Assembly: GCA_947587025.1 (NCBI GenBank)
Contig: CANPXW010000006.1
Location: 1-51,546, forward strand
Length of the DNA: 51,546 nt
Direction of reading: 5' to 3'
DNA from: an uncultured Oscillospiraceae bacterium
GTDB taxonomy: Bacteria > Bacillota > Clostridia > Oscillospirales > Oscillospiraceae
The position numbers were made by a program, and so were the translations under genes. Each line of letters starts with the position of its first letter. The stretch's first letter is position 1. Shown piece after piece: positions 10,809 to 21,431 of the stretch. The notes under the pieces are model-generated. The model was not told the DNA's origin, did not search any database, and saw only the letters and a program-made list of their open reading frames with translations.

Positions 10809-13800
10809 TTAGCCCTCCGCCATCTTCTTGTACTTGGCGTAACGGGCCTTCACGTCGGAGATGGCCTTGGCGTACAGCGCGTCGGCCCTCTCGGGGAAGT
10901 TGTTCTTCAGGGACGCGAACCGGTTCTCGCCCATGAGGAAGTCCATGAGCTTGCTCTGGTCCGGCTCCTTGGAGTCCAGCTGGAAGGGATTCTTGCCCTC
11001 CGCAGCCCGGCGCGGGTCATACCGGTACAGGTGCCAGTAGCCGGCGTCCACGGCCTTCTTCATCTCATCCTGCGTGCAGCTCATGCCTGCCTTGATATGC
11101 TGCTCCAGGCACGGGCAGTAGGCGATGATGATGGACGGGCCGGGGTACTCCTCCGCCTCGCGGATGGCCTTGAGGGTCTGGGCCTGGTCGGCGCCCATGG
11201 CCACCTGGGCCACGTAGATGTAGCCGTAGCTCATGAAGATGGCGCCCAGGTCTTTCTTGGCCACCTGCTTGCCGCCGGCAGCGAACTTGGCCACCGCAGA
11301 GGTGGGCGTAGACTTGGAGGACTGGCCGCCGGTGTTGGAGTACACCTCGGTGTCCAGTACCAGCAGGTTGATGTCCCGGTTCTGGGCCAGCACGTGGTCG
11401 ATGCCGCCGAAGCCGATGTCGTAGGCCCAGCCGTCGCCGCCCACGGCCCACACGGACTTCTTGGCCAGGTATTCCTTGTTGTCCAGCACGAACTGGGCTT
11501 CCTCGCTCTTGGGGGCCTTCTCCAGGGCGGCCACCACCGCGTCGGACAGCGCGCGGGACTTCTCCTTGTCCTCCCAGCCTTCCAGATACGCGCCGATGGC
11601 GTCCGCCGCCGTGCCGGCGGCCTTGAGGGCCTCCAGGCGGAGCAGCAGCTCCTTGCGGATGGCGTCCTGGGCGTGGAAGAAGCCATAAGCGAACTCCGCG
11701 TTGTCCTCGAACAGGGAGTGCTCCCAGGCAGGGCCGTAGCCCCGGTCGTCACGGCAGTAGGGCAGGATGGGCGCGCCGCCGCTGTAAGCGGAGGAGCAGC
11801 CGGCCGCGTTGCCGATGTACATGTGGTCGCCCACCAGCTGGCTGACCAGCTTCAGGTAGGTAGTCTCGGCGCAGCCGCCGCAGGCCGCGGAGAACTGGAA
11901 GTAGGGCTTGGCGAACTGGATGGACTTGACGGACTTGTCGCTGATGACGTCGTGCTTGAGGTACTTCTCGTTCATGGCGACCTTGTCGAAGTTCTCCTGC
12001 TCCGGCTTCATCTGCTCGAAGGGGGTCATGACCAGCGCGTCCTTGGCCGGGCACTGGGTCACGCACACGCCGCAGCCCAGGCAGTCATAGGGGGACACCT
12101 GCATGCGGTACTGGTACGCGGGGGCGTCCTTGCCCAGGCCCTTGGCGGGCACGGTCTCGAAGGAAGCGGGCACCTCGGCCTTCTCGGCCTCGGTCAGCAG
12201 CACCGGGCGGATGGCCGCGTGGGGGCAGCACATGGCGCAGCGGTTGCACTGGGCGCAGGCCGCGCCGTTCCACTTGGGCACCTTGGTGGCCACGCCGCGC
12301 TTGGAGTAAGCGGAAGTGCCGTTCTCCCAGGTGCCGTCCAGCACGCCGTACTTCTTGAACACGGACACGGGCAGCTTGTTGCCCTGCTCCTTCGTCATAG
12401 GGATGACGATGTCCCGCACGAAGGGGGTCACGTCCGGCTCGGCAGCGGGCGCGTCCTCAGCAGTGGCCCAGGCGGCGGGGATGTCCACCTTCACGGCGGC
12501 GCTGATGCCCACGTCTACGGCCTGGTTGTTCAGGTCCACGATCTTCTGGCCGGCCTTCTTGAAGTAGGAGTTATAGTTGTTCTTCTTCATGTCCTCCACG
12601 GCCATCTCGATGGGGATGACCTTGGTGAGGGCGAAGAAGGCGGCCTGCAGGATGCTGTTGGTGCGGTTGCCCAGGCCGATCTCGGCGGCCAGCTTGGCCG
12701 CGTCGATGATGTAGAACTGGGCGTGCTTTTTCGCCAGGTCCCACTTCATCTTGGCGGGCAGGCGGGTCTCCAGCTCCTCCACGGACCAGGGGCAGTTGAG
12801 CAGGAAGATGCCGCCGTCCTTCAGGTCCTCGGTGGTGTCGTACTTCGTCACGTAGGTGGGCGCGTGCACCGCCACGAAATCGGCGGAGGACACCAGGTAG
12901 GTGGAGCGGATGGGCTCGTCACCGAAGCGCAGATGGCTCTGGGTCAGGCCGCCGGACTTCATGGAGTCATAGGAGAAGTACGCCTGGGCGTACTTGCCGG
13001 CGATCAGGCCGATGGTGGTGATGGCGTTCTTGTTGGCGCCCACGGTACCGTCGCCGCCGAAGCCCCACAGCTTGCAGCTGATCTGGCCCTTGGGGGACAG
13101 GTCGATGTCCTCATAGTCCAGGGAGGTGTGGGTCACGTCGTCGTTGATGCCGATGGTGAAGCTGTTCTTGGGCTCGGCCTTTTTCAGGTTGTCGTACACC
13201 GCCACGAACTGGCCGGGGGTGACGTCCTTGGAGCTGAGGCCGTAGCGGCCGCCCACCACACGGATGTCGCCGCGTCCGGCCTGGTTGAGGGCCGTGACCA
13301 CGTCCAGGTACAGAGGCTCGCCCACGGAGCCGGTCTCCTTGGACCGGTCCAGCACGGCGATGCGCTTGACCGTGGCCGGGATGGCGGCGGCGAAGTGCTT
13401 GACGGAGAACGGACGGTACAGATGCACCTGCACCATGCCCACCTTCCGGCCGTGGGCGTTGAGGTAGTCCACGGTCTCCTTCACGGTCTCGGAGCCGGAG
13501 CACATGATGACGATGCACTCCTCCGCGTCGGGAGCGCCGTAGTAGTTGAACAGCTTATACTCCCGGCCGGTCAGCTTGCCGATCTCGTCCATGTAGTACT
13601 GCACGGTCTCGGGCACGGCGGCGGCCTTCTCGTTGGCGCCCTCCTTGCACTGGAAGTACACGTCGGGGTTGACGTTGTTGCCCCGGTTGGTGGGGTGCTC
13701 GGGGTTCAGGGCCTTGGCGCGGAAGGCCTTCAGGGCGTCGTAGTCGATCAGACCCCGCAGGTCCTCATAGTCCAGCGCCTCGATGCGCTGCATCTCGTGA

Positions 13801-20423: not shown

Positions 20424-21431
20424 TCAGGCCTTGGCCCGCTTGGCCATGGCCATGCGGGAGGTGGTCTTCACGGCGCGCTCGAAGGAGTCGGTGGTCACGC
20501 TGGCCTTGCCGACCTTGTCGAAGGCGGTGCCGTGGGCGCAGGTGGCGATGGGATAGGGCTGGCCGCCGGCCACGGTGATGCAGCGCTGGAAGCCCACCAG
20601 CTTCAGGGCGATCTGGCCCTGGTCGTGGTACATGGTCACCACCACGTCGAACTTGCCCTTGATGGCGTCGATGAACAGGGTGTCGGCGGAGTAGGGGCCG
20701 GTGACGTTCCAGCCGGTCTCCTTGACCACCTTCTCGATGGTGGGCTGGATCACGTCCACCTCTTCCCTGCCGCACAGGCCGAACTCGCCGCAGTGGGGGT
20801 TCAGGGCCGCCACGGCGATGCGGGGCTTGTGGCCCAGGCTCTCGCCGGTGATCTCGCCCAGCTCGATGGCCTCGCGCAGGGTCTTCTCGTTGATGGTGGC
20901 ACTGACCTCGCTGATGGGGATGTGGCTGGTGGCGCGCACGGTCATCAGATCGTCCATCATGTTGACCTCGCAGAACGGGGTCTTCAGCTCAAAGGCGTCC
21001 GCCAGGTAGGTATGCTCGCTCTCCACGTGCATGCCGGCCATCTTCATGGCGCCCTTGTGGAAGGGCCCGAACACGAAGCCCTCGATCTTACCGGCCTTGC
21101 ACAGCTCGATGGCCGTGTCCAGCTGGTGCAGATCGCCCTGGCCGCAGTAGAGGTTGGCCTCGCCGTAGACCACCTTGTCCGGATCCTGGTCGCCCAGGTC
21201 CAGCACGGGATAGCCCTTGGACCAGTCGCACTCGCTGAAATCGTGGATGACGTAGTGGGGCACGTCGCCGCCTACCACCTTCAGGCCGTGCTCGAACATG
21301 CGCAGATCGCCGATGATGACAGGCTGGCAGTAGTCCTTATAGAAGTCCTTCACCGCCAGCATGGCGACCAGCTCGGGGCCGACGCCCGCAGAGTTGCCCA
21401 GAAGTACGCCGAGGATAGGTTTTTCGCTCAT
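20424..21431 (-). CDS. PdxA-family NAD-dependent dehydrogenase
   Basis: A 335-residue member of the 4-hydroxythreonine-4-phosphate dehydrogenase family. Motifs include GNSAGVGPELVAML at the N-terminus, GPFHKGAMKMAGMHVESEH in the centre, and the metal-binding MYHDQGQIALKLVGF with HGTAFDKVGKA near the end. Members oxidise a phosphorylated or free 3-hydroxy acid with decarboxylation. The family covers vitamin B6 synthesis, threonate/erythronate catabolism (PdxA2) and aromatic diol dehydrogenases. Its place beside a TTT importer and acid-metabolising enzymes argues for catabolism rather than B6 synthesis, but no DUF1537 kinase partner is present. GGAGGG precedes the ATG. Confidence 0.85.
   Translation of the reverse strand: MSEKPILGVLLGNSAGVGPELVAMLAVKDFYKDYCQPVIIGDLRMFEHGLKVVGGDVPHYVIHDFSECDWSKGYPVLDLGDQDPDKVVYGEANLYCGQGDLHQLDTAIELCKAGKIEGFVFGPFHKGAMKMAGMHVESEHTYLADAFELKTPFCEVNMMDDLMTVRATSHIPISEVSATINEKTLREAIELGEITGESLGHKPRIAVAALNPHCGEFGLCGREEVDVIQPTIEKVVKETGWNVTGPYSADTLFIDAIKGKFDVVVTMYHDQGQIALKLVGFQRCITVAGGQPYPIATCAHGTAFDKVGKASVTTDSFERAVKTTSRMAMAKRAKA

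Follow-up and report, generated by a model that had tools for sequence, protein, structure and literature searches.

We examined a window of 51,546 nucleotides, contig CANPXW010000006.1 (C6) of assembly GCA_947587025.1 from an uncultured Oscillospiraceae bacterium, in which eight neighboring genes encode a PdxA-family dehydrogenase, a tripartite tricarboxylate-type (TTT) transporter (TctB, TctA, and TctC), a nickel-pincer isomerase of group 22 of the LarA superfamily (LarA22), a split UxaA/GarD-family lyase (small subunit lyase A and large subunit lyase B), and a paralogue of pyruvate:ferredoxin oxidoreductase (PFOR). We propose, with our confidence divided about evenly for and against, that in this anaerobe the operon breaks down an aldonate-type sugar acid, possibly threonate or erythronate, via LarA22, the lyase, and PFOR, the reactions, their order, and the substrate all being inferred. 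The basis of the proposal is the gene families, the conservation of a core of the set, the retained catalytic and metal-type residues, and the altered pocket residues of PFOR.

In the proposed scheme, the TTT transporter would import the sugar acid and LarA22, with its nickel-pincer cofactor, would invert the C2 hydroxyl, thereby fitting the acid to the next enzyme. The two-subunit UxaA/GarD-type lyase would then take water from C2-C3 to give a 2-keto-3-deoxy acid, which the PFOR paralogue would oxidatively decarboxylate directly to acyl-CoA, CO2, and reduced ferredoxin, replacing the usual aldolase; in the four-carbon case, 4-hydroxy-2-oxobutanoate would yield 3-hydroxypropionyl-CoA. The PdxA-like enzyme may serve an accessory oxidation branch.

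An earlier note on this DNA had read the locus as a possible acid-degradation set with a LarA-type isomerase beside a split UxaA/GarD-type lyase and PFOR, and our neighborhood survey finds this set in other genomes. A scan of named genomes returned at least 587 relatives of LarA22, whose best 80 loci were analyzed, and ten close loci were defined by a lyase at least 82% like that of the window (L120–L122 from the named-genome scan and the others from a genome sample search; one of the ten, L270, contains a truncated lyase only). Genes in relatives were called by composition scoring with a home-made caller, which may have erred on some small or start-shifted genes. The core relatives, namely LarA22, lyase A, lyase B, and PFOR, are 66–88% identical and occur in Oscillibacter valericigenes, a Candidatus Agathobaculum, and other members of the order, and the top three LarA22 matches among the best 80 loci (71–83%) all adjoin a lyase B of 85–88%. 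In O. valericigenes An860 (L120), relatives of all eight window proteins lie on one contig with 72–91% identity (TctB 72%, TctA 90%, TctC 80%), in the one-strand order PdxA, TctB, TctA, TctC, sigma-54 regulator, AbrB-type gene, LacI, LarA22, GntP permease, lyase A, lyase B, and PFOR. Candidatus Agathobaculum intestinipullorum (L121) encodes a KdgT-like permease and an amidohydrolase, together with a PdxA of another kind (44%) and with LarA22, GntP, both lyase subunits, and PFOR, and a short contig of a Clostridia bacterium (L122) carries lyase A, lyase B, and LarA22, with no PFOR after the lyase.

A lyase of at least 82% is present in 7 of 394 sampled genomes of the order, the window's own genome (G000) included, and the next best match is 49%. 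G186 and G324 carry LarA22, GntP, lyase A, lyase B, and PFOR; G256 carries the four core genes, its PFOR being cut off where the contig ends, and has TRAP genes close by; and in G333 the lyase match is truncated, at 131 residues, and lies close to the end of a contig. Within a family sample of 150 genomes that also includes G000, G064 is the sole other genome with the lyase (∼83–84%), PFOR (84%), and LarA22 (80%). All four core genes are co-located in the window, L120, L121, L266, L267, and L268; PFOR directly follows lyase B in seven of the ten close loci (window, L120, L121, and L266–L269), and LarA22 lies within 5 kb in seven of ten (window, L120, L121, L122, L266, L267, and L268). The conserved core is LarA22, lyase A, lyase B, and PFOR, and the nearby transporters vary (TTT, GntP, KdgT-like, or TRAP).

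In the PFOR of Desulfovibrio africanus, the accessible text of the structural report places Leu121, Ala219, Ile843, Asn996, and Met1202 around the methyl group of pyruvate and assigns carboxylate binding to Thr31 and Arg114 (PMC5020499). We placed these D. africanus numbers by motif and alignments on the PFORs of the conserved set (island PFORs). Thr31 and Arg114 are retained in all eight island PFORs, as is Asn996 in all seven that reach that position. The D. africanus-type methyl pocket (Leu121, Ala219, and Ile843) is not kept, its residues being His, Asn, and Ala in the island PFOR: His121 and Asn219 occur in eight of eight island PFORs and in none of 29 others (28 further best-ranked family-search loci and a PFOR from contig C28 of the same genome, not a random set), and Ala stands at the Ile843 place (Ala848 in the window copy) in seven of seven island PFORs. 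The C28 protein, a second full-length PFOR, is 52% identical to the island copy. The altered pocket suggests a more polar acyl group, i.e., the lyase product in place of pyruvate, and the changed residues lend no support to pyruvate, the PFOR substrate assumed in the earlier note.

For the lyase, the critical feature is a set of four cysteines that, in the portion of their report accessible to us, Watanabe and colleagues describe as common to UxaA/GarD enzymes, sulfolactate sulfo-lyase excepted (PMC6336799). Lyase B of the window has Cys at 27, 51, 84, and 152, which are all four aligned dehydratase positions, the aligned columns having been equated with those of the accessible text by similar spacing. 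Two SuyB references, from Paracoccus ferrooxidans and P. seriniphilus, read I, R, P, and C at these columns; they were named from their neighbors (a sulfate exporter; TTT genes and two dehydrogenases). Loss of three cysteines is no proof of SuyB, as it is seen in a Variovorax protein and one Haladaptatus protein as well. The window lyase is 34–36% identical to the SuyB references and 60% identical to a Salmonella plasmid lyase. In a tree from which three rows were dropped beforehand (two duplicates and a fused Rubrobacter protein), the island lyases and a Megasphaera relative form a clade (100/99) that is joined next by the Salmonella plasmid lyase (100/90), with SuyB, UxaA, and GarD placed elsewhere. 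A constraint that groups the island clade with SuyB costs 30 log units, with a borderline p of 0.054 in the approximately unbiased test. No SuyB was found in the annotation of a Ruegeria pomeroyi megaplasmid stretch. We predict from these residues that the lyase is an Fe-dependent sugar-acid dehydratase. Galactarate dehydratase was rejected as an assignment, lyase B scoring 228.8 bits against the TIGR03248 cut-off of 730.85.

LarA22 scores 515 bits against the cut-off of 400 for the NCBIfam family NF052515, and we assume that this group 22 is group 22 of PMC7583248. It holds R63, H95, H161, K174, and H190 as counterparts of LarA R75, H108, H174, K184, and H200, the two catalytic histidines being mapped from a weak profile alignment and the R, the K, and the last H by spacing. 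The same RHHKH pattern is present in 106 of 108 LarA22 rows, and by these residues the enzyme looks catalytically complete. The parts of the LarA literature available to us report no activity for group 22. As to cofactor supply, LarC (PF01969) is present in 13 of 22 genomes examined and LarE above its cut-off in 12, with weak lower matches in all 22. Neither LarC nor above-cut-off LarE was found in 8 of 21 LarA22 genomes (G000, G010, G039, G078, G116, G120, G150, and G151); five of these eight are at least 96% complete, G078 is a single contig, and G150 and G151 have no completeness figure. We met no discussion of LarA in genomes lacking LarC and LarE in the accessible portions of that literature.

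Several other loci with LarA-type genes were also noted. L142, L157, L158, and similar Paenibacillus/Bacillus-type loci place LarA22 beside SDR and FGGY-kinase genes in what looks like another sugar-acid route. In G071, a single run at L118 (1881-11748) contains TctA, PrpD, a fumarase-type gene, a lyase, and two LarA types side by side, canonical LarA and LarA22. On a Sulfitobacter plasmid (L109, 5650-9716), a fused UxaA-type gene is followed by one annotated as a nickel-dependent lactate racemase and by a LarC family gene, a LarA-lyase pairing outside Clostridia.

A number of observations weigh against the sugar-acid reading of the operon. The earlier note had treated the genes as a unit, and this stands insofar as the core is kept across genomes, but the set can come apart: in G507, both lyase subunits and PFOR occur with no LarA22 found across the 15 kb that were read, and in G064, the two lyase subunits share a contig with an FAH-family gene, LarA22 and PFOR lie on two others, LarA22 being non-adjacent to the lyase, and no PdxA was found. 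These two genomes come partway toward the clusters without a LarA-like gene that the note had named as its counterexample. Among the best 80 LarA22 loci, same-strand neighbors within 5 kb include the lyase in 8 and PFOR in 2, alongside SDR (37), FGGY kinase (30), TTT (11), PdxA (5), TRAP (5), IlvD (3), and DUF1537 (2), counts that cover the families for which a query was at hand; in the family sample, the lyase is near LarA22 in 2 of 25 loci. The lyase is one of several group 22 partners and not the usual one, and such varied neighbors would fit a sugar-acid epimerase supplying several routes. LarA22 matched no solved LarA in PDB searches with either the single sequence or a profile, and its profile match to canonical LarA is weak (probability 8.8). 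LarC was not found in G000 (80% complete), where LarE gave weak matches below cut-off, and the same is true of G150 (Oscillibacter) and G151 (Agathobaculum). The island PFOR scores 1658 bits against the TIGR02176 (pyruvate) cut-off of 911, and Ala at position 843 is not island-specific, occurring in 5 of the 29 other PFORs. Finally, the lyase clade can supply other downstream steps: the Megasphaera relative (75%) is followed by a DHDPS-family gene and has IlvD-family genes nearby, the G064 lyase is followed by its FAH gene, and lyase relatives on Salmonella and Priestia plasmids accompany DHDPS and FAH genes.

These lyase neighbors, in Megasphaera and on the plasmids, favor a reading that we regard as doubtful, in which the substrate is a C5/C6 sugar acid whose 2-keto-3-deoxy product is split by an aldolase encoded elsewhere, PFOR taking pyruvate or a side product; against this, PFOR and not an aldolase follows the lyase in seven of the ten close loci, and the pocket is altered. 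Glycerate or another pyruvate-yielding acid would require no aldolase and would suit a PFOR that exceeds the pyruvate-type cut-off, and LarA homologues racemise glycerate according to the accessible part of PMC11770544. LarA22 would then racemise glycerate, the lyase would dehydrate it to pyruvate, and PFOR would oxidize pyruvate in the ordinary way, a scheme made improbable by the changed pocket of all eight island PFORs and by the presence of another full-length PFOR in the genome. To our knowledge, moreover, no glycerate dehydratase of the UxaA family is known. It is very improbable that the lyase is a SuyAB-type sulfo-lyase, the branch raised in the earlier note, with LarA racemising 3-sulfolactate in the stead of a two-dehydrogenase racemase, SuyAB freeing sulfite, and PFOR oxidizing pyruvate. 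The two share a superfamily, the P. seriniphilus SuyAB-like pair accompanies TTT genes and two dehydrogenases (SlcC- and ComC-like by annotation), and the borderline test leaves the tree alone not decisive, but three of the four dehydratase cysteines are gone in both SuyB references and kept here (in agreement with the accessible text of PMC6336799), identity is far higher to the Salmonella plasmid lyase, the clades are separate, and the PFOR pocket is altered.

Within the proposed sugar-acid pathway, a four-carbon acid is our leading but weak guess at the substrate, favored by the PdxA family of the first gene, by LarA22 adjoining a DUF1537-type kinase (domains PF07005 and PF17042) and PdxA in L124 and L137, by the D-threonate precedent, and by the lack of an aldolase in the operon. 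As far as the accessible literature goes, D-threonate is dehydrated by UxaA/GarD-family enzymes and imported by a KdgT permease (PMC10079672; family from PMC6336799), and it is a KdgT-like permease that adjoins the Agathobaculum set. No DUF1537-type kinase was found in the operon; one is encoded on contig C8, with unrelated neighbors. The window PdxA falls below the cut-offs of TIGR00557 (222 versus 290 bits) and of D-threonate-4-phosphate dehydrogenase (158 versus 583 bits), and the RTSxDHG of five aligned solved PdxAs reads IATCAHG in this protein; with scores under the cut-offs and a changed signature, canonical PdxA and D-threonate-4-phosphate dehydrogenase were both rejected as assignments. 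Two kinase-linked PdxAs examined read IRASVDHG at the same place. The unusual signature is common to the window, L120, and L121, and one close to it occurs in the incomplete PdxA that lies at the edge of L137. This signature suggests that the window-type PdxA does not act on the phosphorylated substrate usual for the family, which, along with the aldolase-type neighbors of more distant lyases, argues against a four-carbon acid.

The D-threonate/erythronate pathway uses a DUF1537 kinase and PdxA2. It shares with the operon a PdxA-family enzyme, and with L124 and L137 the pairing of kinase and PdxA, there beside LarA22; it differs in that the operon has no kinase and its PdxA carries the IATCAHG signature. 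Non-phosphorylative sugar-acid pathways, such as that of D-arabinonate dehydratase, likewise use the four-Cys dehydratase family to produce a 2-keto-3-deoxy acid, and in the accessible account they continue by an aldolase, a second dehydratase, or a dehydrogenase and hydrolase, whereas here a PFOR paralogue comes after the lyase and a LarA-type enzyme before it (PMC6336799). The SuyAB system with its SlcC/ComC racemase, as far as it is described in the accessible text of PMC12421959, resembles the operon in having a split lyase of the same superfamily, stereo-inversion first, and TTT genes nearby in P. seriniphilus; it differs in that the SuyB references keep one of the four cysteines present in the window lyase, and the inversion here would be carried out by LarA. 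A cluster on the Sporomusa termitida plasmid pSPTER encodes an enolase-family protein, TctC, TctB, TctA, a LarA domain protein, and the small and large UxaA subunits, with importer, LarA, and split lyase in the order seen in the window, but its LarA is 39% and its lyase B 46% identical, and no PFOR or PdxA is annotated in the 21 kb shown. The earlier note's view that a LarA-like epimerase beside such a lyase is not a described pathway agrees with our literature search, which included few subscription papers and found no description of LarA, a UxaA/GarD lyase, and PFOR as one pathway.

The eight consecutive minus-strand genes at 10809-21431 recognized in the earlier note are real open reading frames, every one of which could be assigned by Pfam or NCBIfam (Table 1). 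Intergenic gaps from PdxA to PFOR are 87, 12, 66, 114, 15, 15, and 27 bases, calculated from the coordinates, and the eight genes likely form a single operon. A LacI relative sits just upstream of LarA22 in Oscillibacter as well. The genome comprises 2.3 Mb in 154 contigs.

Table 1. Features of the operon and its surroundings in the window.
Feature	Coordinates	Strand	Family or remark
PdxA-family dehydrogenase, divergent subtype	20424..21431	-	PF04166, 261 bits
TctB, small membrane subunit, TTT transporter	19869..20336	-	PF07331
TctA, large permease subunit, TTT transporter	18327..19856	-	PF01970, 477 bits
TctC, solute-binding protein, TTT transporter	17232..18260	-	PF03401
LarA22, nickel-pincer isomerase group 22 (LarA superfamily)	15834..17117	-	NF052515
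Lyase A, small subunit, SAF domain	15537..15818	-	PF08666; adjoins lyase B in relatives
Lyase B, large subunit, UxaA/GarD family	14358..15521	-	GD_AH_second and GD_AH_C (PF04295, PF20629)
PFOR paralogue with altered acyl pocket	10809..14330	-	TIGR02176
MatE transporter between LacI and PdxA	21530..22930	-	PF01554
LacI-family regulator, likely local regulator	22949..24121	-	PF00356, PF13407
Isochorismatase-family gene, downstream of PFOR	10215..10736		
16-pair terminator-like stem	10168..10202	scan lists + strand	Between the operon run and convergent + strand genes

Elsewhere in the window, a Bmp-type ABC transporter cluster (5538-10155, + strand) is convergent with the operon, and an iron-only hydrogenase-type protein with a chorismate mutase gene directly after it is encoded at 25792-27533 (+). 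A second small metabolic cluster (27843-34302, +) comprises a split transketolase, a ketopantoate-reductase-like gene, DctP, DctQ, DctM, and a GntR regulator.

Taken further, the proposed pathway may represent a new sugar-acid branch, possible although somewhat unlikely in our estimate, in which a PFOR-derived 2-oxoacid:ferredoxin oxidoreductase would act directly on a hydroxylated 2-keto-3-deoxy acid and would draw on a nickel-pincer C2 epimerase, the cells being seemingly unable to make the cofactor by the known route and perhaps obtaining it from neighbors or by some other route. If this is true, some anaerobic Clostridia would conserve energy from sugar acids as acyl-CoA and reduced ferredoxin with no reactive aldehyde made, PFOR would have acquired a new substrate, and LarA group 22 would gain a function open to testing. 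Whether bacteria share the nickel-pincer cofactor among themselves is a further question, prompted by the LarA genes of genomes in which LarC and LarE were not found.

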